From positions 1 to 36,111 of IMG/VR virus record IMGVR_UViG_3300032401_000033: DNA of 36,111 bases; one strand, written 5' to 3'. Under the pieces are notes generated by a model. That model searched no databases. It was not told where the DNA came from and worked only from the letters and a program-made list of their open reading frames with translations. Below are positions 4,264-26,916 of the stretch, in pieces. A program made the position numbers and the translations under genes. Position 1 is the stretch's first letter; each line of letters opens with the position of its first letter. The DNA comes from a virus.

Positions 4264-4464
4264 TTATCCAAGAAGCAAGGGCTTTTCACTCTTGCTCTCA
4301 TGAACCTTGGGCTTGTCCACCAACTTGGCAGCACTGCACCCTTCGTGCACACAGATATACAGATCCTTGTCAGGATGCTTACTCTCTCCGGGCACGCGCT
4401 GCCACTTATGCTCATGGACGATCTTTGCACCTGAGCTCGGCAACTCTTCAGTTATCGTCTTCAT
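4264..4464 (-). CDS. Small hypothetical protein with possible zinc site
   Basis: 66 residues from ATG 4464, chosen because GGAGG lies six bases upstream. The start overlaps the end of the portal gene by 17 bases. Histidines (HEHKW) and a C-x4-C pair (YICVHEGC) could form one zinc site. The C terminus is Lys/Ser-rich. No known family. Its position directly after the portal suggests a head or connector accessory role, but nothing in the sequence proves it. Confidence 0.6.
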   Translation of the reverse strand: MKTITEELPSSGAKIVHEHKWQRVPGESKHPDKDLYICVHEGCSAAKLVDKPKVHESKSEKPLLLG

Positions 4465-7762: not shown

Positions 7763-8704
7763 CTAGTCTAGCATTTTCATTGCACCCAAAATCTTCTCCC
7801 AATCCCAGCCTTTTCTTAGACCCAGCTCGACCATCCGTAGATTTCGTACTTGGGTTCGACTGACAGATCCAACTGTTGCTTCAGGATCATTAGGCTTTCC
7901 TCTCAGTCGAAATCCTTGTCGCCGTTTCAACGCAGCTGTAAAAAATTCAAATGCTTTTTCAAGAATTGCCCCCAAGTCCTTCCGCTCGTCTTCCAAGCTG
8001 GAATCTGTTGCTCCTTTTTCTCGAATTTGATCTACCGCCGCATCATATATTTCCCTGAACTTCAGATCCACCATGTGAATAATTCTGTCTGCGAGAATGC
8101 GAAGATCTTCATCTGACCGCCTTCCAGAAATGATCGCGAGATAACGAGCAATGTTCTGTTCTTGGAATTCCCAAGGTGATAGCAACGCGGCGGCACCCTT
8201 TTTGGCTTTTTCTCGTTCCCTGCTTTTTGCGGCTGCCTGAGGAAGCCTCCTCTCTGCATTGGCTAGATCAAGCTTGTACACAACTGATGCCTGTCCTGCA
8301 ATACGAAACTCTGGGAAAGAAGTTACATCCCCACCCAAGCCGATCCTGGTAGGATATTCTTGCCGGGGTTTTCGTGTTGGAAGAGAGTGTGTGCCCTTGT
8401 AACTCACTGACAGCAAAGTATCTCCCTTCATCCAAAATAGCAACACCGGCTCATTGCTGGCAAAAACTTTCACGGCCTCGAAAGGAGTAAGTATTTCAAA
8501 ATCCCAGTCCTCTAACTCCTGCCAGTTGGTTCGGGGTACCGCAACTTCCCTGTTTAGCATACTTAACGCATTCATTCCTGAAAAAATAGTACCCGTAGTC
8601 TTGTCCCTCCACCCCGCAGCGATCTTCCGCACGATGTTTGACCGAAGAGTCTCAGTCAGCATCAGGTCAATTGCACTCTCGATCTGTTCAGATGTGATTA
8701 CCAT
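7763..8704 (-). CDS. Tag-bearing paralogue of the tandem-domain protein (single-domain copy)
   Basis: 313 residues. N terminus EQIESAIDLMLTETLRSNIVRKI carries the shared motif ending in Leu-Thr-Glu. The rest matches, region by region, the three domains of the adjacent 976-residue protein: WxxLxDxDFEIL(T/A)P(F/E)(E/D)AVK, LLFWM, AxVVYKLD, a Lys/Arg-rich stretch, KKGAAALLSPWEF, NIARYLAIISGR, and IIHMVDLKFREIYD. No enzyme motif is recognised. It starts inside the 3' end of that neighbour (7-base overlap), so the pair arose by tandem duplication. I infer a head-internal protein whose N terminus is trimmed after the LTE; the function of the domain is unknown. Confidence 0.75.
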   Translation of the reverse strand: MVITSEQIESAIDLMLTETLRSNIVRKIAAGWRDKTTGTIFSGMNALSMLNREVAVPRTNWQELEDWDFEILTPFEAVKVFASNEPVLLFWMKGDTLLSVSYKGTHSLPTRKPRQEYPTRIGLGGDVTSFPEFRIAGQASVVYKLDLANAERRLPQAAAKSREREKAKKGAAALLSPWEFQEQNIARYLAIISGRRSDEDLRILADRIIHMVDLKFREIYDAAVDQIREKGATDSSLEDERKDLGAILEKAFEFFTAALKRRQGFRLRGKPNDPEATVGSVSRTQVRNLRMVELGLRKGWDWEKILGAMKMLD

Positions 8705-11628
8705 GAGCTTTTGTACTCTGGATCACGTGCTTTGCGTAAAAAGTCCTTTAATTTTACCAGCTCTTCAGTCCAACTCGTGAAAGAAAAATAACCGGGATCC
8801 TCTTTTGCTCGAGCTTTTCGTCGTTTCCACTCCTCTGGATCTTCCTTCTTAAGTACTTCATCACGAATGTTTTTCTGAACGATTTCGACGTAAGTTTTCC
8901 ACGCGTCTTTCTGAAGTTCAATCATCCCCTCACCTTCTCGGCGAAGTGCTTGCAACTCGGCTTCGGCGGTTGAAGCATCCATCTGATCCAGGCAAGCCAA
9001 ATACCGACGACTAGACAGATGGAGAATCTTCTGAACCAAGAGCTTTACCCCTTCAGGAGTGGTTCGATCCTTAATCATTGACTGATATCGCCCCTGGTTC
9101 GTAGCTTTGACATCCGCGGGGCTCAGCAAAGCCGTGGCACCAGAACGGGCAAGGTCGCGCCTGGCACGCTTCTCGTATGAGGTCTTGGTGCCTCCCGAAA
9201 CCGCTGGCCTTGCGCCGAAAGGAAACTCCCATTTACGAACAAGGGCGAGAGGAAGGACGTAGGCCACGTCACTGTACTGCGCCATAGTCTTGATCTTCTC
9301 TCCGTGTGCGACGCCTATTTCAGGATAACCTACCTCTACTGGCTTCCCCTGCATCGTCACACCAGCAAGGGTGTTTGGAGGAACTGTGATTTTGTGCTTC
9401 CACGAATGCCTGTATCCTCCGCTTTCTTTCTCAAACTCTTTGCCCTTCTCGCAGTACCAGAAGATAAAACCCTTCTTATACTTGTCTTTCAACGCTTCTT
9501 CGGGTTTGAGTACCAGAAAATCTTCGTCGGTGATTTCACTCCACAGAAGCGGATTGAAAAGCTGTTCAGAAGCACGCCTCCCGGCTGGCCCTCGGTACAA
9601 ACGGTGTAGCAGAGAAGGCTCTTTCTTTACTGGACCTTCATGGTTGGCGAATCCCGGCCTGACCGAAACCGATGTTGCCTTCATGAGCTTACGGAGTATC
9701 TCGGATTTCACTGCTTCAAGCAGCACGTGATCAATTGCTTCTTCGATCGGATCATTCATAGTCTGCTTTCCTTCATTTCGATGCCGTCCCTGCAGTTCGT
9801 ACAAAACCTCTTTCATCGTCTGAAGATCATGTGCAAATGAATTAGACAAGCCTGGGTTTTTTCTTGCTTGGTCCATTTTGTTTGCAATTCTCTCAAAAGC
9901 GTCAAAAGCATAATCGAGATTCGTAGAGACAAACATCTTACTTTCTATGTGCGCTGGATCATTCATGATCTCGTCACAAATCTCTCTGTACTTCAAGTTT
10001 GCCAAGTGAATAATCCGGGACATCAGCGCCTTTACTGACTCAGGTGTTGCTCGACCGGCCATGATACTCTGATAACGGGTAAGATTGTATACTAAGAACT
10101 CACCGGGGCCCAGCAAAGCTGCGGCACCAGAACGGGCTTTCTCTCTTTTCTTCTTCAGCTCAAGACGGGTGTTCCTGTACTTTGCTGCAATTTTCTCTGG
10201 ATCGACAACATAGGCCGTGTCAGCCAACTTCGCGGCCAGGCTCGGGTCATCGGCTCCAGCGTTTAACCCCCGAGGTGTTCCTGCCCACCCGAAGTAATGC
10301 CCGCCGAAATCACTAAAAGCTTCATCATCATCTGTGATAGAGATCAATCCGACTGGAACAGTATCAATATCAGAGGAAGGCTTTGTCTTCACCCAGAAGA
10401 CTATAACATCTCTGTAGTTGTTGTGGGCATCCTCTGCGCTCATCTTCAGTACATCGTCATCTGTTAACTGACTCCAGGAAATAAAAGGATCTACTCGAAG
10501 CAAAAGCGCTTTGAAGCTTTGCTTGTATGAAATTGGAGGGTAAATCTTGGCAAGCTCTGCCAAGTGCTTGGACTTGAAAGTTTCAGTGAGCATTCGATCA
10601 ATCATTGTCTCAATAAAAGTGTGCGGGCTCACCCCATAATCCCTTTTGCCTGTGACCTTCAACCAGTACCCTCGCAAACTTCTTAAAAACGAGGAGCTTT
10701 CTCGTTCATAGCTCTGTCTGAAAACTTCTTTTTCTTCTTCATCACCACCCCACTGAGACAACATTCTGGCGTACTGCTCAGCCGAGTCAAGCATATTTGA
10801 GTAAGTCTCCCACGTGTTGCCTATCAGCTTGTCCATTTTAGTGACTTCACTGAAATCAATGTCACCAGGAGATTGCTGCAACATCGTGACCATATTTGTT
10901 GAAGCTGCACGAAGGATCTTTGAAATTAGTTCCTTGATCCGATCTGGTGTATACTTATCCCTCATCAGAGCCCATTTGTGTTCAAAGTACTCAGCTTTCA
11001 CCTTCTTTGGATTCCACAAACTTTCGGCGCCCTTTTGGGCTTTTCTGCGGGCCGCTCTCTGCTGTGTAGTTCGAGGTGGATTTCGCAAAACGTAGGCAAG
11101 GTCGCACATTGAATGCGCTGCCTTTTCAAATACCTTCATTTCAAGCGTGGTATAAGCACGAGTATACCATCCAGGTGAATCGAATCCTTGGCCCACCCAA
11201 GTTCTTCCTTGAGTGATTAGAACCAATGTGTTGGCAGGAATAACTACATACTCTGGTTGTGGTTTGTGGCCTTTCCAGTTTGGATCCCGTCGTCGATCAA
11301 TGTTGTACCAGAAGATAAGCGGTTCTTTTTGTATTGCACTAGAACCTGTGAAAGGAAGATTTCGTTGTCGCGCGTCAGCAAGAATCTTTACGGCATCTTC
11401 CGGGGCCAAGACCTCAAAGTCACTGTCTTTTACAAGGTTCCAATCAATACCTTGCGCACGAAAAGCATCCCACTGTGGAATTGAAACACCATACTCTGTG
11501 GTTGTATGAGCCTCCCTTGCCTTTGCATAGTTGGCTCTCATCAGCTTTTGGAGTATCTTCGACTGGAAGGCTTCGGAAAGCACTCTATCAATCTCACGCT
11601 CGATGAAGTCGTTAATCTTTTGCTTCAT
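8698..11628 (-). CDS. Triple-domain protein, candidate processed internal head polyprotein
   Basis: 976 residues in three homologous units, each opening with the same tag: IEREIDRVLSEAFQSKIL (9-26), IETMIDRMLTETFKSKHL (339-356) and IEEAIDHVLLEAVKSEIL (628-645). After each tag come the shared blocks: DxDFEVLxPEDA, IFWY, PxNTLxxIT, AYVL, KKGA/RSGAxALLxP, RYQSIM, TPExxKxLxxKIL. A fourth copy is the next gene. Each hydrophobic-x-Glu fits the T4-type prohead protease consensus, so cleavage could yield three separate proteins. That is inference; the unit fold is unknown and no catalytic signature is visible. A methionine at 624 (MNDPIEEAID) shows the third unit could once have been a free gene. Its start overlaps the upstream gene by 17 bases. 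Confidence 0.75.
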   Translation of the reverse strand: MKQKINDFIEREIDRVLSEAFQSKILQKLMRANYAKAREAHTTTEYGVSIPQWDAFRAQGIDWNLVKDSDFEVLAPEDAVKILADARQRNLPFTGSSAIQKEPLIFWYNIDRRRDPNWKGHKPQPEYVVIPANTLVLITQGRTWVGQGFDSPGWYTRAYTTLEMKVFEKAAHSMCDLAYVLRNPPRTTQQRAARRKAQKGAESLWNPKKVKAEYFEHKWALMRDKYTPDRIKELISKILRAASTNMVTMLQQSPGDIDFSEVTKMDKLIGNTWETYSNMLDSAEQYARMLSQWGGDEEEKEVFRQSYERESSSFLRSLRGYWLKVTGKRDYGVSPHTFIETMIDRMLTETFKSKHLAELAKIYPPISYKQSFKALLLRVDPFISWSQLTDDDVLKMSAEDAHNNYRDVIVFWVKTKPSSDIDTVPVGLISITDDDEAFSDFGGHYFGWAGTPRGLNAGADDPSLAAKLADTAYVVDPEKIAAKYRNTRLELKKKREKARSGAAALLGPGEFLVYNLTRYQSIMAGRATPESVKALMSRIIHLANLKYREICDEIMNDPAHIESKMFVSTNLDYAFDAFERIANKMDQARKNPGLSNSFAHDLQTMKEVLYELQGRHRNEGKQTMNDPIEEAIDHVLLEAVKSEILRKLMKATSVSVRPGFANHEGPVKKEPSLLHRLYRGPAGRRASEQLFNPLLWSEITDEDFLVLKPEEALKDKYKKGFIFWYCEKGKEFEKESGGYRHSWKHKITVPPNTLAGVTMQGKPVEVGYPEIGVAHGEKIKTMAQYSDVAYVLPLALVRKWEFPFGARPAVSGGTKTSYEKRARRDLARSGATALLSPADVKATNQGRYQSMIKDRTTPEGVKLLVQKILHLSSRRYLACLDQMDASTAEAELQALRREGEGMIELQKDAWKTYVEIVQKNIRDEVLKKEDPEEWKRRKARAKEDPGYFSFTSWTEELVKLKDFLRKARDPEYKSSW

Positions 11629-11953
11629 AACCAGGCCGAGAAATCTTTCGGTACTGTACGTTGATTCGAGAAAGCTGACTGCGAAGAGTCACAATATCTT
11701 CATGATATCGAGCTGAGACTACTTTGGCAAAAAGAAGAAGGGCACTAACAGCTCTCATCAGCGGTTCCTCCAATTCTTGCGTAGAGACAAACTCACCCGA
11801 AGCAATCTTTTCAATCCCAATCGAATAGTGCCTGGCCATTGCGTGCTGTATCTTCTCCATCACCTGTTTGATCTCGATAAAAAGTTCCTCAGCAGTTGCC
11901 CCCTCAGGACTATCTGCCTCAATCACGACGGTGATGGCCTTTTCGATGTCCAC
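11612..11953 (-). CDS. Small tag-bearing hypothetical protein
   Basis: 113 residues with a GTG start at 11953 that shares one base with the TAG of the AAA+ gene (TAGTG). The N terminus MDIEKAITVVIEADSPEG matches the shared motif, ending Val-Ile-Glu-Ala. The body is helical (ELFIEIKQVMEKIQHAMARHYSIG; ALLLFAKVVSARYHEDIVTLRSQL), with no recognised domain. The tight coupling with the AAA+ gene suggests the two products act together or are packaged together; this is inference from position. Confidence 0.65.
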   Translation of the reverse strand: MDIEKAITVVIEADSPEGATAEELFIEIKQVMEKIQHAMARHYSIGIEKIASGEFVSTQELEEPLMRAVSALLLFAKVVSARYHEDIVTLRSQLSRINVQYRKISRPGYEAKD

Positions 11954-12900
11954 TACTTTCTCCGGATGCTCTCGAGGACCTTCTCGTCTCGCCTGGGCAG
12001 ATCAGTGTAATCGGCCGAACGAAGGCGCTCGATCACGTCACCGACATTCTCCTTGAAGGCATACCCGGCAATGATCAGCTCTCGGAGATGGCCGAAGGAG
12101 AAGCCCCTGGTCTTCTCGGCGATCTGTTGAATACGTTCGGGGGTCTCGATTCCGTTGAGCTTGTGCTTCAGATAAATCAGTCGGCCTTCTACAGGCGGGT
12201 AGTCGATCTTGACCTTCTTGTCAAACCGGCCCGGACGGAGAAGCCTAGGCGGGAACTTCTCGATGTAGTTGGTCGTGCCCAAGAACAGGACGTTGTCGAC
12301 AGAATTGTTGCCGTCAAGCAACTGGAGCATGTTCCGCTCCGAGTAACCGATATACTCATCCATATCCTCAAAGACGACAACAACTCTGCGATCCGGTTCG
12401 ACTTCTCGGAAAGCCGGGAGGCCTTCAAGCACCTCACCAAGGGCACGGGCGATGATTATCAGGTCGCCCTGCTTTGTCATGCTTTCAGCAACCTGTTTGA
12501 TCAGGCAGGTCTTGCCCGTTCCTGGGGGACCGTAAAGAAGAAGACCTCTGTTGTGGAGGAACCCAAGCTTGTCGAAGTTACCTTTTAACGTCCAGAAGCG
12601 CTCGATCTCCTCCAAGACTGAGTACATCTTCGACCCCTCAAAGAGGTAAAGGTCATCAGTACGGAACTCTTTCTTGACGAAGTAAAGTGTACCGCCTCTG
12701 TACTCCAAGATGTAGGCGTGAGGGTCAAGTTTCGGGACGAGTTCAATATGGCCGCACGGACGGAAGGCATCAGCTTCCTTTACATACTGAATCAAATGCT
12801 TGACTACATCTGCCTTCTTGTCCTTGCTAATCACAGCAGCAACACCCGGGCATACCATGGCATCAATGGCTTCTTCGATCTTCCGCTCAGTCAGGTTCAT
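11953..12900 (-). CDS. AAA+ ATPase with N-terminal tag
   Basis: 315 residues. Walker A GPPGTGKT (124-131), Walker B VVVVFEDMDE (173-182), sensor-1 GTTN (208-211) and arginine-finger region LLRPGRFDK (220-228) give a complete single AAA+ module of the FtsH/Bcs1/proteasomal-ATPase type. A C-terminal helical lid follows (GFSFGHLRELIIAGYAF). The first 110 residues are not a known domain and open with ERKIEEAIDAMVCPG, the same tag that marks its neighbours, but with Cys-Pro where others have x-Glu. It starts at an ATGA overlap with the upstream gene. It should hydrolyse ATP to remodel a protein; the substrate is unknown. Location next to TerL and tagged proteins suggests a role in head assembly or as an injected protein. 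Confidence 0.88.
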   Translation of the reverse strand: MNLTERKIEEAIDAMVCPGVAAVISKDKKADVVKHLIQYVKEADAFRPCGHIELVPKLDPHAYILEYRGGTLYFVKKEFRTDDLYLFEGSKMYSVLEEIERFWTLKGNFDKLGFLHNRGLLLYGPPGTGKTCLIKQVAESMTKQGDLIIIARALGEVLEGLPAFREVEPDRRVVVVFEDMDEYIGYSERNMLQLLDGNNSVDNVLFLGTTNYIEKFPPRLLRPGRFDKKVKIDYPPVEGRLIYLKHKLNGIETPERIQQIAEKTRGFSFGHLRELIIAGYAFKENVGDVIERLRSADYTDLPRRDEKVLESIRRK

Positions 12901-13262
12901 ATGTCGATCAACCTTTCTATCTCGTCTAGTGCATGTTGTGCATTCAATCTGTGCTTTGCCATTTGTGGAGGCAGTGAGTCCCTGCTTGCAAAGTAGGCGG
13001 CCAATGCTTCGAACAGAGAGGCTTGCTGCTCGGCCATCTCTTTGCTGTAGGCCATAACTCCGGCCAGAGTAAGATCGTCTTCTTCATCTTGCAGGGCCAA
13101 GAGATTCTCACTGATTTTCCTCGATACCATCTGACAATCAGATGAGATTCGCTTCATCAGCGCGTGCCTTTCAGGTGATAAAGAAAACATTGCTGTAAGG
13201 TCCGGTCCTGTCGTCTCTACTAAAGCGCTGATCTTCTGTTCAATCTGTTCGTCAGTTGTCAT
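12897..13262 (-). CDS. Small tag-bearing helical protein
   Basis: 121 residues from ATG 13262, four bases after AGGGG; an in-frame TTG one codon earlier is ignored. N terminus TDEQIEQKISALVETTG matches the shared motif. The remainder is a long helical array (ERHALMKRISSDCQMVSRKISENLLALQ; EQQASLFEALAAYFASRD; LNAQHALDEIERLIDI). No domain recognised. It ends in an ATGA overlap with the AAA+ gene, and a hairpin with a GTATTAC element lies just upstream, so it likely leads the operon that runs through the AAA+ and tandem-domain genes. Confidence 0.65.
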   Translation of the reverse strand: MTTDEQIEQKISALVETTGPDLTAMFSLSPERHALMKRISSDCQMVSRKISENLLALQDEEDDLTLAGVMAYSKEMAEQQASLFEALAAYFASRDSLPPQMAKHRLNAQHALDEIERLIDI

Positions 13263-13281
13263 CAAACCCCTAGACCTACAC

Positions 13282-15170: not shown

Positions 15171-15858
15171 CTTCTTCTCCACGGATCAGGTGTGTAAGAA
15201 CCCGTCGCATGCCTTCTCTTTCAGCCGGATCGTCTGGCAAGACTACTTCGGTAAGCTCGAGTTTTCGAACTCCTCCGGTCCTCTTACTCCCGAGTTTTGC
15301 CGAACCAAATGCAAGTACGAGCTTGTCAATCACATCCTTCAAGTTCACTTCGCCGAGCTGGGACAGCTCTTTGAGGAAGTTAAGTTCACGTGCTTGCATC
15401 CCCGAGATGCTTTCCATGAGCATCAACGCCCCTCCCGGACTGATACGACCTTTCCAATTCGCATCCTTCATCTTGTCCTTGAACAAGATTTGTAGGTTTT
15501 TCATCTCATCATCCAACTCGAGAGCCCGTTGGATCTTTCCAATGGCGATCACGCGCAGGATCAACTGAACCTTGGCATCCTCTCTCTTGAGAAACTCCAC
15601 AACATCATCTGGCAGATGCTGATCAAAGTTTGAGGCTTTGTCGATAAAGTCTGCCACGGCTACGAGCATGTCACTCACCTTTTCCTTGCCCTGCAAAACA
15701 GTGAGTAACTTCATCGGTGTCTTGGCTTTGAGCTCGGGATGATGATGGTTGATATGGCGAGACAGAAGAGAGGCTACCTTCGCACGGTAGTCGCAGAACG
15801 GACACTTGTGGGGCCGTTCAACTTCTTCAGGAGTTGGTGCCTTCTGTTCTTCGGCCAT
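15082..15858 (-). CDS. C2H2 zinc-finger protein, candidate small terminase or packaging factor
   Basis: 258 residues. ATG 15858 shares a base with the TGA of the nuclease gene (TGATG). Residues 17-40 form a classical C2H2 finger, HKCPFCDYRAKVASLLSRHINHHH (Cys19, Cys22, His35, His39). The middle is helical (VSDMLVAVADFIDK; DDVVEFLKREDAKVQLILRVIAIGKIQRALEL) and the C terminus is acidic and Gly-rich (RGEEDESGGGTHTVEAEDAAGAG). The position directly before TerL with a long overlap is where a small terminase is expected. A C2H2 finger is unusual there, so the packaging role is an inference from context; a transcription regulator is the main alternative. Confidence 0.7.
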   Translation of the reverse strand: MAEEQKAPTPEEVERPHKCPFCDYRAKVASLLSRHINHHHPELKAKTPMKLLTVLQGKEKVSDMLVAVADFIDKASNFDQHLPDDVVEFLKREDAKVQLILRVIAIGKIQRALELDDEMKNLQILFKDKMKDANWKGRISPGGALMLMESISGMQARELNFLKELSQLGEVNLKDVIDKLVLAFGSAKLGSKRTGGVRKLELTEVVLPDDPAEREGMRRVLTHLIRGEEDESGGGTHTVEAEDAAGAGENPSDHPENR

Positions 15859-16526
15859 CAAACCCTCTTCTTGTAACTTGAGACGAAGTCCTCAAGTCTC
15901 ATCACATTGAAAACACCGGACTTGCAAGATAAAGTCACCTCCCTAAAATCCTCAGGAGGAGTCTTTTCGGTTGAATCTAGAAGCTCGATCGACGCAAAGA
16001 TGTAAGCGGCGTATTCACGATTCCCGCATCGCATGATCAGCAGTGGACGCTTTTTTGCTCTTAAAGCGTCATCAATACATTGCTCCCACCAGTCAACGAT
16101 GATGTCACTAGTTTCACTGTAAGGTGCAAAGAAGTCCAAGGGCTCTTTCCGTCGCTTGCACTCGACACAGAAAGGAAAGTTCGCTTCCGGAGGGCTCCAG
16201 ATATCCCCGGCGGCCTGAACTTGACCATCTGAACTTAGCTTATCCCACCCGCCAGATGATGGAGTACGACGGAATTCCGCACCCCACCACTGGCTAAGTG
16301 TGTGAACTACCTTTCGCTCAAAGTCCGACCCTACGTCCTTTGAGTGACGGCCTCCGAGTGCTTTCTTGGTAAAAGTGAGCGATTTTTCGTTGTACGTAGG
16401 ATAAATCGTACCCAGCACAGCGAGACGCGGCGGGACTTCTGTTTTCAATCCTCCGCGAGAAGGAAAGTCCTTACCACCCACCTTCTCTACCCCAATTCTG
16501 AACGTGATTTCCCAATCTACTTTCAT
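15858..16526 (-). CDS. PD-(D/E)XK nuclease, Holliday-junction-resolvase-like
   Basis: 222 residues. GGAGG sits four bases before ATG 16526, only 14 bases after the 3' end of the tmRNA gene. The catalytic pattern is clear: Glu70 in GSDFERKV, RRTPSSGGW, Asp108 in AAGDIW, and Glu122-x-Lys124 in FPFCVECKRRK. The order Glu / (R)RTPxSGG / GD / ExK is that of Hjc-like archaeal resolvases and related phage resolvases or VRR-type nucleases. A 60-residue N-terminal extension is unassigned. The likely job is resolving branched DNA before packaging, consistent with its place upstream of terL. It could instead be a recombination or restriction nuclease. Confidence 0.72.
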   Translation of the reverse strand: MKVDWEITFRIGVEKVGGKDFPSRGGLKTEVPPRLAVLGTIYPTYNEKSLTFTKKALGGRHSKDVGSDFERKVVHTLSQWWGAEFRRTPSSGGWDKLSSDGQVQAAGDIWSPPEANFPFCVECKRRKEPLDFFAPYSETSDIIVDWWEQCIDDALRAKKRPLLIMRCGNREYAAYIFASIELLDSTEKTPPEDFREVTLSCKSGVFNVMRLEDFVSSYKKRV

Positions 16527-16540
16527 TTCACCTCCACGAA

Positions 16541-16896
16541 TGGTGGACGCGGCGGGAATCGAACCCGCGTCCGAATAAGAGCAACTGGTAGATCTACGTG
16601 CGTAGTCGATTTAACGATTCGACAATCGAGGGATGACAGATTTCTCCGTCGTCCTCCACCAGTAGGCTCTTTCAGCTCGACCTACTCAAGCACCTGAACC
16701 ACAGGCTTTGGCTCTGTGAATAGTCGTACTCCCGATTACCAGAGCACTCATCGGTTTCCTATCACTGCTGGTTAAGCAGCGAGTTTCATAGGTTCAGCAC
16801 CTATAAGTGCACAGAATAGTTTCTACGTGACCAACTGTGCATTTCACGGCACGCACTCACCAGCTCCTTCCTACTCGTCGATACCTTTTCGCGCCC
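16541..16896 (-). ncRNA. ssrA: Transfer-messenger RNA (tmRNA), tag AEPMKLAA
   Basis: 356 nt. The 5' end GGGCGCG (16896-16890) pairs with CGCGTCC before the encoded ACCA (3' end 16541), giving a 7-bp acceptor stem with a G3-U70 wobble, the alanine identity element. GGTATCGACG follows the 5' acceptor strand, as in known tmRNAs. The T arm is GCGGG TTCGATT CCCGC. The tag frame GCT GAA CCT ATG AAA CTC GCT GCT TAA (16798-16772) encodes AEPMKLAA-stop, ending in the usual Leu-Ala-Ala. It is preceded by TATAGGT, resembling the bases before the E. coli resume codon. The stop lies in a CTGCT/AGCAG hairpin. An earlier GCA at 16810 would give a longer tag (ALIGAEPMKLAA). It should release ribosomes stalled on broken mRNAs and tag the products. 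CCA is encoded. No promoter of its own is obvious. Confidence 0.93.
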
Positions 16897-16913
16897 ACAG
16901 CCTTCAAACCTCA

Positions 16914-16943
16914 GGCGCAGGACCCTTATCCCTTTCCTGCGCC
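16914..16943 (-). other. Strong hairpin upstream of tmRNA
   Basis: A perfect 9-bp GC-rich stem (GGCGCAGGA / TCCTGCGCC, 12-base loop) lies 17 bases before the tmRNA 5' end and after the DUF932 stop. A smaller GTTG-CCG-CAAC hairpin precedes it. No T tract follows, so it is not a standard terminator. It may guide 5' processing of tmRNA from a DUF932 co-transcript. Confidence 0.6.
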
Positions 16944-16966
16944 CTCGTTGCGGCAACCTCCAACCC

Positions 16967-17989
16967 CTAATTGATGACAACCCCTTTGACCTGGGGCAGA
17001 TGGACCACCCCAATCTTCTTCAAGGCGATGTTCAGCGCGGACTCCTTGATCTTCGCCCCGCTGCCCATCCACACCGACTGAAGCCGGCGGGAAACATCCT
17101 GGTCCACCTTTGGGATGCTTCTAATGTGATCTACATACTCCGTCACGGAGTTGTAGGCAGCCCAGGCCGTTCCCTTGATTCCAGGCAGGCTGTTCGCCGG
17201 TGACTCGAACCGAGCAACCATCCCGTCGCGGATGTTTTCCAAGCGCGTGCTCACCTCGCCCTCCTTGGCGGAGGGCATGATCTCACACACGTACTCAGAT
17301 AGCCACTCGGCATCGATCTCAACGCGGGCCAGGGCGTTGAAAGCCTCACTCAGGTCCTTGTAGTAGTCAGTGGCGATACTCAGGGCCTTCTTGGCCTGCT
17401 CGACCTTCTTCAGGATGTCCGGGAAGTGGCGGATGACAATACCTTCACCAGCTTTCCGAACTGACAGTGCCGCCGACAGCGTGTTCTGACACACCACTCG
17501 GATGGGCGTGAAGAACATCCTCAACGACCTCGACCCGTCATGGGTGTTGGTCAAAAGCAGAAACTTGTTGATGATGTCGTCCGTTCCAATGATACGAATG
17601 CCCTCAGGCAGCTTGGCGAGAATCCAGACTGTCTCGCCCTTGCCCAGCGCCCCGGCGACGTGATACATCGCCGCCTTCTGCCCCACCACAGAATCAAAGA
17701 AGCTGAACGCATCCTTATTCTGGACTGGAGTGTAGAGGCGTCCGACGATTCCGAGCGGAATCTTGTGATCCATCCGCACCGTGGCGAAGTGTCCGCTGAT
17801 GCCGATTGGATCACCAAGCCCGATAGCTTGGATCTTGGCAACCGCCACCTCCCAGTTCAGACTGGCGGCAACGATTGCCTCCTCCGCTGTCGCGGGATTG
17901 CTGAGTTCGGTTCCAAGCCCGTGCCACGGAACTTCCCCAAAGTAGGCAATCTCCGGCTTACCGCTAACTGTACTGATGTTTGCGGGCAT
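16967..17989 (-). CDS. DUF932 (phage/plasmid-like TIGR03299-type) protein
   Basis: 340 residues. GGAGG precedes ATG 17989 by nine bases. The N terminus (GKPEIAYFGEVPWHGLGTEL, then AIVAASLNWEVAVAKIQ), the central RVVCQNTLSAAL and the later GTAWAAYNSVTEYVDH are hallmarks of DUF932, found widely in phages and plasmids. The biochemical role is not established; members are often linked to DNA replication or recombination regions. Here it lies between two structured RNAs, the candidate at 18097-18314 and the tmRNA, which is an unusual context. A possible sigma70-like promoter is 50-80 bases upstream. Confidence 0.88.
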   Translation of the reverse strand: MPANISTVSGKPEIAYFGEVPWHGLGTELSNPATAEEAIVAASLNWEVAVAKIQAIGLGDPIGISGHFATVRMDHKIPLGIVGRLYTPVQNKDAFSFFDSVVGQKAAMYHVAGALGKGETVWILAKLPEGIRIIGTDDIINKFLLLTNTHDGSRSLRMFFTPIRVVCQNTLSAALSVRKAGEGIVIRHFPDILKKVEQAKKALSIATDYYKDLSEAFNALARVEIDAEWLSEYVCEIMPSAKEGEVSTRLENIRDGMVARFESPANSLPGIKGTAWAAYNSVTEYVDHIRSIPKVDQDVSRRLQSVWMGSGAKIKESALNIALKKIGVVHLPQVKGVVIN

Positions 17990-20505: not shown

Positions 20506-22353
20506 TTACATATACCAACCAACGCGGGGGCCTTCAACGTGAATGATCTTCCAACCAGGCTTATAATCTCTTTCGAGCTCAACAGCGGCGAGTTTCTTCG
20601 CATGAATTTCATCTTCAGCGTCAACGTCAACTTCCTCTTTCATACCGTTGGGCCACTGAGCAAGTACGGTATAGCGATCAAGCCTCTTCTCGCCCACCAA
20701 CCTGTCGATCACTGACTCTTCAGGCACCGGCTTGACAGGTTTTTGAGCTGGTGCAACTTTCTCTTTCGCCACTGCTGTGATCGGATTGCCTATAAGATCG
20801 ACTTTCATGCCCCCTGGAAGGCCTTTCGTTGACGTAATCTTGTTCCTTCGAGCAATGAAATCCTCACCAACCTTCTGTGGGCATCCCACCAGATTGGTCA
20901 GCTGATTGTTAGACACATCAAAGTCGCGGGCAACTTCTTCAGGTCCGCCTTCAAGCGTAGTAAGATGATTGTGAACGGCTACCATGTACCCAACCTTCCC
21001 GGGGCATCCCTTGAGTGACTGAAGAGAGTTGAAACCCACATCAATTTCTCCTGGAACTACTGCGGGCATACCTTCGAGAGACACAAGTTGATTCATAGAC
21101 GCGAAGACGCCCCCAACCTTCTGTGGGCATCCCTGCATCGTCGTCAGCTCGTTGTTGTAGATACTAAACAGCCCACCAACTTCGAGCGGGGCCCCTTCTA
21201 AGGACTTCAACCTGTTGTGACAGACAGTAAACATCTTCAGGCATTTCTCAGGCCCACCTTTGAGAGAAAAAAGGTGACAACCAGATGCGTCAAACGATGA
21301 AACCACTCGTGGCATGCCCTCAAGGTCGGTAATTGACGTCTGCCTCACGGTGTACGATCCACCAACTTCGACAGGACCGCCCTTGAGCGTCTTTAGCTGT
21401 CGACAACCATCTAACTCAAATCTACCGCCGACCTTCTGTGGTGCCCCCTCAAGCGAGGTAAACTCGTTGTCGCCAAGCAGACAATCTCCAGTGATCTCCC
21501 TCGGACAGCCAACCAGTGACTTTAGATGGGTGGATGAGAAATTACATAAGCCATCAACTTTGCCGAACTTGATCGGTATTTTGCTCAGCTCCAAGCCGCG
21601 GAAGTTTACTTCTCCTTTGACGTCAATTGATCCATCAGGATTCTTATTCCAATTAGTGCCGAACTTGTTGGTCAACCACTCCTCATCAAAGGTCATTCGA
21701 TTATGAATGAGATTGACCGGAACACCTTCACCTTTTAGGAACCGCTGGGCCTCCGCCTGATTCATTGATCGGTCAGTTGAGTCATAGGCATGCAGTTCCT
21801 TCGGCAGAGTACCGCCATGGGGCAGGGCATAGATCGCCACTTTGTTGTACTTGTCTCTGTCAGGATAGTGCTTGGAAAGAAAATAGTAGAAGACAGTGCC
21901 TTGACTACGATAACTATCCCAGTGAGATTTTGTAGATTCCGAAGCTACACACCAACGAGACCCTTTGCCGTACTTCTTGGAAGCTTCCCAGGTGTGGGGA
22001 GAAACGACCAGAACTTTGTCGTTCTCGAAGACCTTTGTGGCGTCCTTCTCGGTCTTCTTCACGACATCCACTTGGGCAATCTTTGCCTCCTGAGCGTCTA
22101 CGAACTCCTTGAACTCACTCCAGAGGCCTTTGCCCCACTTCAAGATGTCGTTCTCCTCACCGCGGAGGACCTGACGTTGCTTGAGAGTCTTGAACTTATC
22201 AATGTACATTTCGACATCATCAGCAGTAGGCTTCTGCTCACCTTCTTGATACTTAGCTGCAAGCCACTTCTGTGTCACCTCATCCCAGATACTCTCAGAA
22301 AGCCTTTGTCTAGGTCGAAGGATAGACTTGATGCTCTCTCGGATATCAGACAT
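20506..22353 (-). CDS. Leucine-rich-repeat protein with N-terminal WC-motif domain
   Basis: 615 residues, ATG 22353. The N terminus RESIKSILRPRQRLSE is similar to the shared tag. Residues ~115-200 contain KYGKGSRWCVASESTKSHWDSYRSQGTVFYYFL, a module known from many phage proteins but without assigned function. From ~245 to ~540 are about twelve repeats of 20-23 residues with the pattern L-x-SLEG-x-P-x-x-VGG-x-F-x-x-x-x-N-x-L, a leucine-rich repeat solenoid. A second tag-like motif, EESVIDRLVGEKR, precedes a ~60-residue C-terminal domain. LRRs bind proteins; the partner is unknown. A close paralogue is encoded immediately upstream. A GTATTAC element lies 19 bases before the start. Confidence 0.8.
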   Translation of the reverse strand: MSDIRESIKSILRPRQRLSESIWDEVTQKWLAAKYQEGEQKPTADDVEMYIDKFKTLKQRQVLRGEENDILKWGKGLWSEFKEFVDAQEAKIAQVDVVKKTEKDATKVFENDKVLVVSPHTWEASKKYGKGSRWCVASESTKSHWDSYRSQGTVFYYFLSKHYPDRDKYNKVAIYALPHGGTLPKELHAYDSTDRSMNQAEAQRFLKGEGVPVNLIHNRMTFDEEWLTNKFGTNWNKNPDGSIDVKGEVNFRGLELSKIPIKFGKVDGLCNFSSTHLKSLVGCPREITGDCLLGDNEFTSLEGAPQKVGGRFELDGCRQLKTLKGGPVEVGGSYTVRQTSITDLEGMPRVVSSFDASGCHLFSLKGGPEKCLKMFTVCHNRLKSLEGAPLEVGGLFSIYNNELTTMQGCPQKVGGVFASMNQLVSLEGMPAVVPGEIDVGFNSLQSLKGCPGKVGYMVAVHNHLTTLEGGPEEVARDFDVSNNQLTNLVGCPQKVGEDFIARRNKITSTKGLPGGMKVDLIGNPITAVAKEKVAPAQKPVKPVPEESVIDRLVGEKRLDRYTVLAQWPNGMKEEVDVDAEDEIHAKKLAAVELERDYKPGWKIIHVEGPRVGWYM

Positions 22354-22381: not shown

Positions 22382-23152
22382 TCAGAGGGGACGAGCGCCG
22401 ACAAGTTTGTCGATTACACTGTCAACCACACCCCACCTTGCCTTCATGTACTTCCGGACGTCTCTAACGCTCAGCTTCACCGGATTGTGGCCGAGGAAAA
22501 TCTGGCCACCAATATCCGCCGGAATACCCTTGATCGATGTCAATAAACAACTTGCAGCACTGAAGTAGCCTTTCACGTGAGCCGGAGCGCCTCTAAGGGA
22601 AGTCAGTGGATTTCGCGCACAACTAAAGTGGCCTTCGACAATGTGAGGACCACCTTCAAGTGTTTCCAGCTTGTTGCTACTGCAGTGAAAGGAACCATGG
22701 ACGATCGAAGGACATCCCTCAAGAGAGATCAACCTGTTGTAAGGAATAAAGATATCTCCGCCAACCTGTTCAGGCATACCCTCGAGTGTTTTTATCTCGG
22801 TATGCTCGACTTCGAACGAACCACGAACTATTTTCGGGCAATGTGTAAGAGAAGAAAGCTTTGTCCTTCCACCTTTCCAGCCTGGCCCAACTTGAAAGCG
22901 CCCTCCTACTTCATAAGGACAACCTTCTAGCGAAGCAAGGTTGTTCCCTCGAAGATAAAAAGACTCAGACACAATTCCAAACCTCACAGGAAGCCGAGAC
23001 AGTGGATCAAGCTCGATTTGTACTCCACCATATGCATATGCACCAAGGTAAGACGGGAAGACATCAATCACCCCTGAAGGACGCACTTTGAAGACGAGAT
23101 TTTGGTGACGAAGTTGCTGGAGGATGAACTCTCGGTTTGCGGAGTCGCTCAT
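22382..23152 (-). CDS. Leucine-rich-repeat protein, paralogue, C-terminal tag
   Basis: 256 residues. ATG 23152 overlaps the TAA of the upstream gene (TAATG). About seven LRR units of the same type as the neighbour (NNLASLEGCPYEVGGRF, NRLISLEGCPSIVHGSF, NPLTSLRGAPAHVKGYF). It lacks the WC-motif domain. The last residues, VVDSVIDKLVGARPL, are a near copy of the SVIDRLVGEKRL segment in the neighbour, so both share an LRR array plus this tail. The two genes look like a duplication with domain loss. Likely a protein-binding solenoid; target unknown. Confidence 0.78.
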   Translation of the reverse strand: MSDSANREFILQQLRHQNLVFKVRPSGVIDVFPSYLGAYAYGGVQIELDPLSRLPVRFGIVSESFYLRGNNLASLEGCPYEVGGRFQVGPGWKGGRTKLSSLTHCPKIVRGSFEVEHTEIKTLEGMPEQVGGDIFIPYNRLISLEGCPSIVHGSFHCSSNKLETLEGGPHIVEGHFSCARNPLTSLRGAPAHVKGYFSAASCLLTSIKGIPADIGGQIFLGHNPVKLSVRDVRKYMKARWGVVDSVIDKLVGARPL

Positions 23153-23604
23153 TAGAGGGTTTCCGCTTCGTGTGAGGCTTGGTCCTTTGGGAGGCAGATA
23201 AAGCCCCTCACCACTTCGTCTGGAGCATAGTCTCTAAGTGCTTGGGCATCCCATTTCTCTGCCCACATAAAGATCTCAAGGAAATCATGTACCTTCAATT
23301 CACTGCCATCACTCGCTCGCCAACGACGAAGCGACCCTTTGATTGGCCAGTAGCGATATGACCCAAAATTAAGCGCTTTGGTACCTTCTCCATGTTGAAG
23401 TTCGTGGGCGAGTGCTTCCAAGTTTTGCTTGATATCCCAACCGAGCATCTCCAACTCACGTTTACTGAGATTCTGCTTCTGAAAAGCCCAGCGGGCGTAG
23501 GCCCGCAAAGACTCATCACTCATGAGGTTGCTCATGCCCTCACTGAGGAGAGAGTCAATCACTTGTTCAACAAGATCAGGCCTAATCGGCTTCAAGCATT
23601 TCAT
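23152..23604 (-). CDS. Tag-bearing protein with HExxH motif
   Basis: 150 residues from ATG 23604, with GAGG six bases upstream; it overlaps the end of the preceding gene by 23 bases. The N terminus PDLVEQVIDSLLSEGMSNL fits the shared motif, ending Leu-Ser-Glu-Gly. HELQH (67-71) in NLEALAHELQHGEG is an HExxH zinc-peptidase signature. A third zinc ligand is not obvious. It could be a small metallopeptidase with a trimmed N terminus, but a fortuitous HExxH cannot be excluded. It begins a three-gene coupled run with the two LRR genes. Confidence 0.6.
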   Translation of the reverse strand: MKCLKPIRPDLVEQVIDSLLSEGMSNLMSDESLRAYARWAFQKQNLSKRELEMLGWDIKQNLEALAHELQHGEGTKALNFGSYRYWPIKGSLRRWRASDGSELKVHDFLEIFMWAEKWDAQALRDYAPDEVVRGFICLPKDQASHEAETL

Positions 23605-24169
23605 CAATGGCCTCTTCGATCGGATCACCCGATTCAATCTGATGGATGATCCGTCGGGCCACATCCCACGCCCGCGTAGGATGACTGGTGATTGATAGAG
23701 TCTTGCGCGAGTCAATCGGCAGTGTCTTGGCCAGACTGGAAGGCATTGGAGGTTGCTTCTTCACAGGAACTTTGACCACCGCTCCTGAAGGCATCACGTT
23801 GACTTTGTGGGTAGGCCGTCTCATCTCCGGAGGAAGCTCAATCATCTGCCGCAACTTCCACTCACCTTTGCCTTTCGTAGAAAGTCTGCAACGAGGGCAC
23901 CTCTCTGTTTGTGGCCCCCAAAGTTCAAAACCACAGTGAGGACACTCGTAGTAGAACTCTTCCCTGCCCGCACTCCGCGCCGGCTTCTTTGCTAGCGACT
24001 TAGCAAGGGGCTCGGTTCGGATTCCCGCCCCTTTTACACTTATAGGAGTTGGAGCGGGGAGGGGCACATACCCGCCAAAAGGCTTTCTTCCCCCAGAAAC
24101 AGGTGCAACGTGAATGACTTCTGTACCAGCTTCTGTGATCAACTGATCAACGATAGTACGAATGCTCAT
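23582..24169 (-). CDS. Zinc-ribbon protein with tags at both ends
   Basis: 195 residues, ATG 24169. The N terminus MSIRTIVDQLITEAGTEV and the C terminus DPIEEAIDEMLEAD both match the shared motif, the clearest case of one protein with two copies. Between them is a zinc ribbon (ECPHCGFELWG...RCPRC) flanked by long Pro/Lys-rich, probably disordered regions (PLPAPTPISVKG, VPVKKQPPMPSS). No enzyme domain is recognised. Upstream of the start is GTAGTACATGGCATC, with no clear Shine-Dalgarno. Inferred internal head or scaffold-like protein. Confidence 0.65.
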   Translation of the reverse strand: MSIRTIVDQLITEAGTEVIHVAPVSGGRKPFGGYVPLPAPTPISVKGAGIRTEPLAKSLAKKPARSAGREEFYYECPHCGFELWGPQTERCPRCRLSTKGKGEWKLRQMIELPPEMRRPTHKVNVMPSGAVVKVPVKKQPPMPSSLAKTLPIDSRKTLSITSHPTRAWDVARRIIHQIESGDPIEEAIDEMLEAD

Positions 24170-25124: not shown

Positions 25125-25493
25125 CTAATGTCGATGGATACTGCCAAATCGAACATCGCCTTTCTCAATCCTTTGAATCTGCACTCTCGCGGCGTTCAAA
25201 TGCTTCCAGAACGCAAGTCCGGAAACAAGTTCCGGAATAGCCTTCCATCGATTGAACTCCCATGCTGCCGCGGCTGTCTCAGCCATGGCATAGTGAACTG
25301 GTTCAGCCCAAGCGTTAAAGAGATATTCGTAATCATGCACGGGAAGCTGTTCCACCTGAATGCGAAGGTCAACGCTGAAGCGATAGAGCGCCCTCTTCAT
25401 CTCCATGACCAAAGCATCGAGTCTCTCCTGGGTAGGCTCTTGATAATCTTCTGCCTCACCTAGCAACTTCTCTATGGCGTTGTCGATGCTCAT
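25125..25493 (-). CDS. Small tag-bearing helical protein
   Basis: 122 residues, starting at an ATGA overlap with the upstream gene. N terminus MSIDNAIEKLLGEAEDYQ is one of the best matches to the shared motif, with Leu-Gly-Glu-Ala as the putative cleavage site. The remainder is helical and aromatic-rich (RLDALVMEMKRALYRFSVDLRIQVEQL; EYLFNAWAEPVHYAMAETAAAAWEFNRWK). No domain recognised. Together with its upstream neighbour it forms a coupled pair that both begin with the motif. Candidate internal head protein by inference. Confidence 0.65.
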   Translation of the reverse strand: MSIDNAIEKLLGEAEDYQEPTQERLDALVMEMKRALYRFSVDLRIQVEQLPVHDYEYLFNAWAEPVHYAMAETAAAAWEFNRWKAIPELVSGLAFWKHLNAARVQIQRIEKGDVRFGSIHRH

Positions 25494-25930
25494 TCTTGAG
25501 TCTTGAGATCTCTGGCAAGATCGTTCATCTGATCGAGATAGTAGTCCAGGAAAACTATGATTTTCTTCTCTACCTCTTCGTCATCCAGAAGATTTACACC
25601 GCTATTACTCAGCGCGTCGTAAAGGTCATCAGATACGTTTCCCCTTTCCCACTCCTGTACAGCCAATATACCAGAACGAAGTAAATCTACTGCCTTGCCG
25701 ATGTCTACATCCGCTGAGAGCAACCCGTTCCCGAGAGAAAGAAGTTTACCAGTGTCGCCAACACTCGTTCCACTGATGTTGTATAGAAGGCCTTTGACAA
25801 CTCGGTAGACATAGTGAAGATAGACTTTCTTCAACTCTGCCAGCTTCTCCTTCATCTGCTGCAGGGCCACAGATGGCTGTCTTTCCTCATTAAGCAGGGT
25901 TTCGATGGCAATGTTGATTTTTGCACCCAT
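25490..25930 (-). CDS. Small tag-bearing helical protein
   Basis: 146 residues, ATG 25930 preceded by AGGAG. N terminus GAKINIAIETLLNEERQPS fits the shared motif (Leu-Asn-Glu-Glu). The body is helical (LQQMKEKLAELKKVYLHYVYRVVKGLL; EEVEKKIIVFLDYYLDQMNDLARDL), with a Gly/Ser-rich turn in the middle. No family recognised. Its leader has GTAGTAC repeats, so it probably heads the transcript that continues with the gene at 25125-25493. Confidence 0.65.
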   Translation of the reverse strand: MGAKINIAIETLLNEERQPSVALQQMKEKLAELKKVYLHYVYRVVKGLLYNISGTSVGDTGKLLSLGNGLLSADVDIGKAVDLLRSGILAVQEWERGNVSDDLYDALSNSGVNLLDDEEVEKKIIVFLDYYLDQMNDLARDLKTQE

Positions 25931-26303: not shown

Positions 26304-26569
26304 GAGCGCACCTTCTTCCTTCTGTACCAGAGCATCATCCCCCGGCCTCCGATGTCAACAGCTGCTTTGCAATCACCGTCTATCGATCCTCTCCCGGAAA
26401 AGATAAACTCGGCATCATTGTAGATCTCATTACAGAGCTTAGCAGTCGAGTAGTCCCCATCCCAACCACGATACCCTTCTTTGTACTTCTGGACAAGGCG
26501 CTTCTTAATCGTCTTCGCATACCCGTCCACTGCGGAGGAAATGCGCTGAAGTTCGGTTTTCACCCTCAT
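26282..26569 (-). CDS. MazG/KGGW-like small protein
   Basis: 95 residues from ATG 26569, which overlaps the TGA of the upstream gene (ATGA), with GGAGG upstream. KRLVQKYKEGYRGWDGDYSTAKLCNEIYNDAEFI followed by CKAAVDIGGRGMMLWYR follows the pattern of a small phage/bacterial family (L-x-x-K-x-x-x-G-x-x-GW ... AxDxANFxMM) related to all-alpha NTP pyrophosphatases. The family's metal-binding acidic residues are only partly visible, so catalysis is uncertain. The function, possibly nucleotide-pool housekeeping, is inferred. Confidence 0.5.
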   Translation of the reverse strand: MRVKTELQRISSAVDGYAKTIKKRLVQKYKEGYRGWDGDYSTAKLCNEIYNDAEFIFSGRGSIDGDCKAAVDIGGRGMMLWYRRKKVRSCRLKPS

Positions 26570-26916
26570 CCCAACACCATCCTCCTCCACACATCCCAGT
26601 TATCACAGACGATGTCCTTGGAATCTTTGAGACCGAGATTGGTTATTGCCCGAATGCACTTGATGGCACTAATCTTAAGGTCGCGCTTGATTAACTCTTC
26701 AAGCGTAAACTCTCCTTCAAAAGAACTCGATTGCCATGTCCTCAAGATCGGATCTTTGCACAGAGTGGCGTGGACGTTAGGAAGGATGATCTCCTGTTGT
26801 CTCTCCTCCAAATAGACGTACCTCTTCGTGATGCCTGCGACGAAGAGGCCTTTCTCCTTGCACATGCGCGTGAATTCATCAAGGGTCACCTTCTTGGAGT
26901 AGATCTGAGGTATCAT
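26566..26916 (-). CDS. Protein with ribosomal L7/L12 C-terminal-like domain
   Basis: 116 residues, ATG 26916 after GGAGG. The C-terminal ~45 residues, TLEELIKRDLKISAIKCIRAITNLGLKDSKDIVCDNWD, match the helix-loop-helix of the L7/L12 C-terminal domain (compare [23 protein letters not shown] in bacterial L7/L12). In ribosomes this surface recruits translation GTPases. The N-terminal ~65 residues are unassigned and basic/aromatic. A phage protein with this element could bind translation factors or mimic stalk recruitment; this is inference. It is coupled at both ends to neighbours. Confidence 0.65.
   Translation of the reverse strand: MIPQIYSKKVTLDEFTRMCKEKGLFVAGITKRYVYLEERQQEIILPNVHATLCKDPILRTWQSSSFEGEFTLEELIKRDLKISAIKCIRAITNLGLKDSKDIVCDNWDVWRRMVLG

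Follow-up and report, generated by a model that had tools for sequence, protein, structure and literature searches.

We identified a genuine and complete phage tmRNA gene (ssrA), of a kind already known and ordinary apart from a hairpin around its resume codon, in the 36,111-base stretch of a virus record analysed here (the window, a 36-kb contig fragment). tmRNA rescues stalled ribosomes and marks the unfinished proteins for destruction. The gene, a one-piece tmRNA of 356 nt at positions 16541-16896 of the minus strand, was the sole gene called by ARAGORN in the window. It matched the Rfam model RF00023 over its full length (model positions 1-374) with 119.9 bits against a gathering score of 47 (E = 1.6e-46), and its G+C content is 52%, as compared to 51% for the window. 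Since a second contig (L002, IMGVR 3300037011_000700) holds the same gene with identical sequence, a one-off assembly error is ruled out.

A first-pass annotation of this DNA had already proposed a complete phage tmRNA with the tag AEPMKLAA, and ARAGORN, RF00023 and a stem search all bear it out. The coordinates, G3-U70 pair, T arm, encoded CCA and stop-codon hairpin that it described are correct when read on the RNA; the strand was absent from it, and the covariance-model search that it recommended is the full-length match given above. It also called phage tmRNAs known but uncommon, in agreement with the 402 of 18,146 phage genomes (2.3%) reported to carry one (PMC9004378).

Anatomy of the tmRNA

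The tRNA-like domain has everything required of it according to sequence and alignment: a 7-bp acceptor stem in which G3-U350 is the equivalent of G3-U70, a T arm and a CCA end, with A as the discriminator base. Helix 2 and four pseudoknots are present, as found by stem search except for pseudoknot 3, which was read by eye, the stem search having returned an overlapping variant in its place (Table 1). The tag frame is equally complete, with an Ala-type resume codon, a hydrophobic-Ala-Ala end and a stop in helix 5. The resume codon GCU is preceded by UAGGU, placing UAG at −5 to −3 and A at −4, so that the bases corresponding to E. coli U85, A86 and G87 are retained; A86 is the main determinant of the frame in E. 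coli tmRNA (PMC2481249). The window RNA thus shares with bacterial one-piece tmRNAs (RF00023) the G3-U70/CCA tRNA-like domain, helix 2, the four pseudoknots, A at −4, the LAA end and helix 5, but differs from them in being phage-encoded and in its tag of 8 residues, the most frequent tag length being 10 (PMC11915505).

Table 1. Features of the tmRNA gene and its neighbours. Nucleotide n of the RNA corresponds to window position 16897-n.
Feature	Window position	Strand	RNA nt	Basis and remarks
Acceptor stem, 5' strand GGGCGCG	16890..16896	(-)	1-7	Sequence; pairs with nt 346-352, G3-U350 wobble
Pseudoknot 1, CGUGA/UCACG + UGCACAG/CUGUGCA	16808..16848	(-)	49-89	Stem search
Resume-codon hairpin (extended helix m), UUAUAGGU-GCUGA-ACCUAUGA	16786..16806	(-)	91-111	Fold, shuffles
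Tag frame GCU GAA CCU AUG AAA CUC GCU GCU UAA (AEPMKLAA*)	16772..16798	(-)	99-125	ARAGORN, sequence
Helix 5, CUGCU-UAACC-AGCAG, UAA stop in loop	16765..16779	(-)	118-132	Sequence; counterpart GGCGG/CCGCC in L003
Pseudoknot 2, CCGAU/AUCGG + GCUCUG/CAGAGC	16711..16754	(-)	143-186	Stem search
Pseudoknot 3, GCUUGA/UCGAGC + GUAGG/CCUAC	16662..16691	(-)	206-235	Read by eye
Pseudoknot 4, GAGG/CCUC + CGAC/GUCG	16620..16656	(-)	241-277	Stem search
T arm, GCGGG-UUCGAUU-CCCGC	16552..16568	(-)	329-345	Rfam alignment
Acceptor stem, 3' strand CGCGUCC	16545..16551	(-)	346-352	Sequence and Rfam alignment
Encoded CCA end	16541..16543	(-)	354-356	Sequence
10-bp hairpin just upstream of tmRNA, after DUF932 gene	16910..16945	(-)		Fold of 70-nt gap, -24.7 kcal/mol
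DUF932 gene, upstream of tmRNA	16967..17989	(-)		PF06067, 4e-56
PDDEXK endonuclease gene, downstream of tmRNA	15858..16526	(-)		PF24608, 8.6e-29
Terminase large subunit, query for phage relatives	13308..15182	(-)		Weak PHROG match; tblastn to annotated phage terminases

Genomic surroundings

On the minus strand, the gene order is T4-type portal with intein, AAA ATPase, terminase, PDDEXK nuclease, tmRNA, DUF932 and topoisomerase-like protein. The ATG of the PDDEXK gene lies 14 nt past the CCA end, and the intervening stretch contains a ribosome-binding site (GGAGGTGAA). Between the DUF932 gene and the start of the tmRNA there are 70 nt. This upstream gap holds a 10-bp hairpin with neither a T run behind it nor a terminator-like match, which may be a processing site; a scan for promoters and terminators around the tmRNA gene found no match on the gene's strand that was better than chance. 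The tight spacing to the PDDEXK gene, the ribosome-binding site and the hairpin-containing gap together suggest that the tmRNA is likely co-transcribed with its neighbours and then processed.

Two further observations concern the neighbouring genes. An HNH-domain intein interrupts the portal gene (4448-7444); the L003 portal has no intein at this site, and that of L004 has an insert. In two other phage contigs (L283 and L284, 7014-7083 in both) a type II hammerhead ribozyme lies directly downstream of a DUF932 gene, on the same side of it as the tmRNA of the window.

A recurrent gene in a diverged phage clade

Using the terminase as query we collected six phage relatives, with terminase identities to the window of 68% (L003), 57% (L004), 55% (L278), 54% (L276), 50% (L277) and 44% (L279); a search of the sequence portal for further clade members returned only contigs already known. 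A tmRNA was found in two of the six, L003 and L278. In L003, a 135-kb contig, the tmRNA (tag ADAPMKMAA) is located within a cluster of eight tRNA genes and occupies the same slot, with DUF932 and PDDEXK genes on either side. It is about 55% identical to the window tmRNA over alignable columns, and the two have in common the acceptor stem with G3-U70, the T arm, a pseudoknot 1 and A at −4; helix 5 is kept with different bases. The L278 tmRNA (98.1 bits, tag AELEQIAA) is located after the terminase gene. No tmRNA was found within the sequenced stretches of L004, L276, L277 and L279, which points to the tmRNA being dispensable in the clade, and in L004, where a search for a degenerate copy also found none, the slot is filled by small ORFs. 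Judged from these contigs, the tmRNA appears to be a recurrent but optional cargo of this phage clade. These results add one more phage lineage, probably of uncultured bacteria, that carries its own ribosome-rescue RNA, with the gene present in at least three diverged members.

Since ssrA is a common integration site whose fragments occur in prophages (PMC9004378), the gene might instead be a non-functional remnant of host ssrA DNA, acquired by imprecise excision from such a site. However, the gene is complete and not a 3' fragment, there is no integrase among the approximately 30 proteins scanned, and the sampled bacterial tmRNAs are all distant from that of the window (about 50-58% identity). 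This divergence, together with the same gene neighbourhood in L003, indicates that the tmRNA has long been resident and is still intact, and makes a remnant extremely improbable.

Complete tmRNAs have been described in Bacillus phage G and in mycobacteriophages such as Bxz1 (PMC4131195), in Streptomyces BE1/BE2 phages (PMC12509530, PMC11237712) and in huge phages (PMC7162821), where they are likewise cargo and often lie amid tRNA genes, as in L003; the window represents a different phage lineage. In Methylophilales phage Melnitz (PMC9004378) the tmRNA is also found amid ordinary phage genes, and its origin likewise does not look like a straightforward, recent acquisition of a host gene, but that tmRNA is two-piece, whereas ours is one-piece and not permuted, and no riboswitch was found.

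We also noted two phage tmRNAs that are missing from the deposited annotations, one in phage Phass-1 (L050, 4597-5035) and a permuted one in Xanthomonas phage XacN1 (L051, 1919-2363), the latter with a GOLLD RNA nearby. In L016, an unrelated 84-kb phage contig, the tmRNA frame reads AVDFGARAGSMKLAA, which puts a base other than A at −4 and leaves the tag start uncertain.

Proposed function

We consider it probable that the gene encodes a one-piece tmRNA that is functional and travels with the phage as cargo. This reading is based on the complete anatomy, the identical second copy, two diverged relatives whose tmRNA genes share the architecture, and the conserved hydrophobic-Ala-Ala end; that the RNA is expressed, charged and used for tagging, that tagged proteins are degraded and that the phage benefits is our inference. 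The tmRNA would be transcribed with its neighbour genes and excised from the transcript, and host alanyl-tRNA synthetase, recognising G3-U70, would charge it with alanine. In complex with SmpB and EF-Tu of the host, the charged tmRNA would enter ribosomes stalled on broken mRNAs during infection, where translation would switch to GCU and add A-AEPMKLAA. The LAA end would then direct the tagged fragment to a host protease, and the freed ribosome could return to phage translation, presumably to the benefit of the phage.

The SmpB partner is presumed to be that of the host, since no PF01668 match was found in five virus records of incomplete contigs, in a search with positive controls. In this respect these virus records differ from the huge-phage set, which as a whole had SmpB genes (PMC7162821). 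The same result would fit a decoy, whose main effect would be to block host trans-translation by titrating SmpB or by competition with the host's own tmRNA. A precedent exists in mycobacteriophage DS6A, for whose phage-encoded tmRNA relative such a role has been proposed; a truncated form strongly inhibits tmRNA (PMC4131195; PMC11915505). The DS6A molecule, however, consists of the tRNA-like domain only, without a tag frame, while the window tmRNA and those of two relatives retain the mRNA-like part in full: the tag frame with its hydrophobic-Ala-Ala end, helix 5 and the pseudoknots. A decoy could do without these elements, and we regard this explanation as very unlikely.

The tag resembles planctomycete tags

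The first-pass annotation had suggested that a short tag with Met-Lys, in place of a usual Asn/Asp-rich sequence, might change how tagged proteins are degraded. To place the tag we compared it with 88 tags from Planctomycetota (65 from the GTDB class of a planctomycete MAG from Lac Pavin and 23 from the class of a Planctomycetaceae MAG) and 89 from three other groups (29 from Verrucomicrobiota, 30 from Bacteroidota and 30 from the phylum of a deltaproteobacterial MAG). All were called by ARAGORN, in samples that favour high Rfam scores and include a few wrong frames. Tags ending in [K/R][L/M/I]AA made up 39/88 in Planctomycetota vs 3/89 in the other groups, and tags starting with AEP 9/88 vs 0/89. 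AEPMKLAA therefore appears planctomycete-like in both halves, and neither its short length nor its lack of Asn/Asp seems exotic; an Asn/Asp-rich tag is no general rule, as planctomycete tags of the AEPQYALAA type likewise start with AEP.

A scan of 84,980 species genomes for MKxAA with a T arm at fixed spacing gave 33 matches, and only one of these, L047 (Planctomycetota, Lac Pavin; 205-559), had an ARAGORN tmRNA, a rarity that is approximate because the pattern left out TAG stops and other spacings. By hand reading, the L047 tag is ADTGMKMAA, which fits its close relatives, whose tags follow A-N-x-x-M-[A/R/L]-[M/L]-A-A and in one case read ANTGMRMAA; the frame given for L047 by ARAGORN (AGKTKMPIQA) is wrong.

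An unusual tag could give the phage an advantage by changing what happens to tagged proteins, for example through escape from SspB-like adaptors or use of another protease. The single MKxAA-tagged tmRNA retrieved by this limited pattern would be in line with such a role, as would the tag middle, which differs between the relatives (PMK, LEQ) with the end staying hydrophobic-Ala-Ala. But varied tag middles are normal among bacteria and part of the variation here may follow RNA pairing (see below). The Leu-Ala-Ala end is intact and the relatives end in Met-Ala-Ala or Ile-Ala-Ala, and 8-9-residue tags in which Lys or Arg precedes the final three positions are ordinary in the sampled Planctomycetota. 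The suggestion of changed degradation is thus unsupported, and we give an altered fate a very slim chance. Lys or Met in a tag should not by itself be taken as a sign of altered degradation.

A strong hairpin around the resume codon

The resume codon of the window tmRNA lies in an 8-bp hairpin of −8.6 kcal/mol (z −4.1; 1/200 shuffles as good). A hairpin enclosing the resume codon, helix m, is known from E. coli and other tmRNAs (PMC1168896, PMC8363625), where it has 3-4 bp (about 4 bp and −3.9 kcal/mol in E. coli) and had been predicted from energy calculation only (PMC1168896). In L278 the hairpin UUCAAGU-GCUGA-ACUUGAG has 7 bp in the same register and with the same loop (−6.2, z −2.1), and in L003 it is a broken 4+4 hairpin (−7.1). 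Between the window and L278 both sides change at −3 (G-C/A-U), −5 (U-A/C-G) and −6 (A-U/U-A), and the outermost window pair is lost in L278; these compensatory changes were counted after the hairpin had been noticed, in two sequences, too few for a formal test. Helix m thus gains a measure of comparative support that was absent from earlier work, and a hairpin of this kind is a mildly new point, as a weak helix m was already known. Because the hairpin is kept with three double compensatory changes, the Pro-Met of the tag may partly reflect RNA pairing, which suggests a reason why tag middles vary while tag ends stay.

Long stems at the resume codon are not restricted to these phages. Stems of at least 5 bp were found in 35/86 planctomycete, 2/28 verrucomicrobial, 6/30 Bacteroidota and 8/29 deltaproteobacterial tmRNAs, and hairpins of 8-10 bp occur in planctomycete tmRNA loci such as L081, L066 and L064. 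In planctomycetes with 9-residue tags, one register was paired in 63% vs 59% of shuffled rows (1 of 300), with relatedness uncontrolled, and we treat the hairpin observations as a lead rather than a result. In IMG/VR tmRNAs with AE-starting 8-9-residue tags (among L305-L322, fetched by tag pattern) the long hairpin is mostly missing.

Such a hairpin has been suggested to protect the resume codon, with a hint from cryo-EM (PMC8363625), and in E. coli a stabilised helix at this position is thought to be inhibitory (PMC2481249); by analogy, the strong hairpin could slow tagging. It is possible, though rather unlikely, that in the window/L278 pair and in many planctomycete tmRNAs an extended helix m locks the resume codon and has to open before tagging, serving as a gate or timing device, with the tag middle (Pro-Met here, Leu-Glu in L278) set by RNA pairing and not by the protease.

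Host and origin of the gene

A planctomycete is our leading guess for the host, offered tentatively and with the chances somewhat against it. A host assignment through L047-like tags looked like a match, but the tmRNA tree places the phage RNA elsewhere: among its 185 tmRNAs, that of the window pairs with that of L278 (support 0.97), and the two fall among weakly supported Verrucomicrobiota and deltaproteobacterial branches. The window RNA thus has a planctomycete-style tag and does not group with planctomycete tmRNAs, so that a planctomycete host is unconfirmed by the tmRNA itself. The mean identity of the window tmRNA is about 50% to every sampled bacterial group. A search for the phage terminase in 397 genomes of the class of the Lac Pavin MAG gave one distant match and no host link.

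Other features of the window

At the contig end, an ORF (1-680) has two Thr-rich runs along with repeats of a IPDANMVSDTAWIPAEQSSGTG segment, which possibly broke the assembly. The products of 20506-22353 and 22382-23152 have leucine-rich-like repeats (LxSLEGxPxxVGG) with no Pfam match, and 26566-26916 encodes a small protein matching the ribosomal L7/L12 C-terminal domain (28.1 bits vs a cut-off of 25.9). A short IExAIDxLL-like motif recurs in otherwise unlike proteins of the window, often near the N- or C-terminus (7763-8704, 8698-11628, 11953-12900, 12897-13265, 22382-23152, 23152-23715, 23582-24169, 25125-25493 and 25490-25930, among others). With a pattern chosen after the motif had been seen, it was counted in 12/44 proteins vs 1.7 expected in shuffles (maximum 5), and it is not enriched in the relatives L003, L004, L276 and L277. 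The motif could be a targeting or packaging signal.
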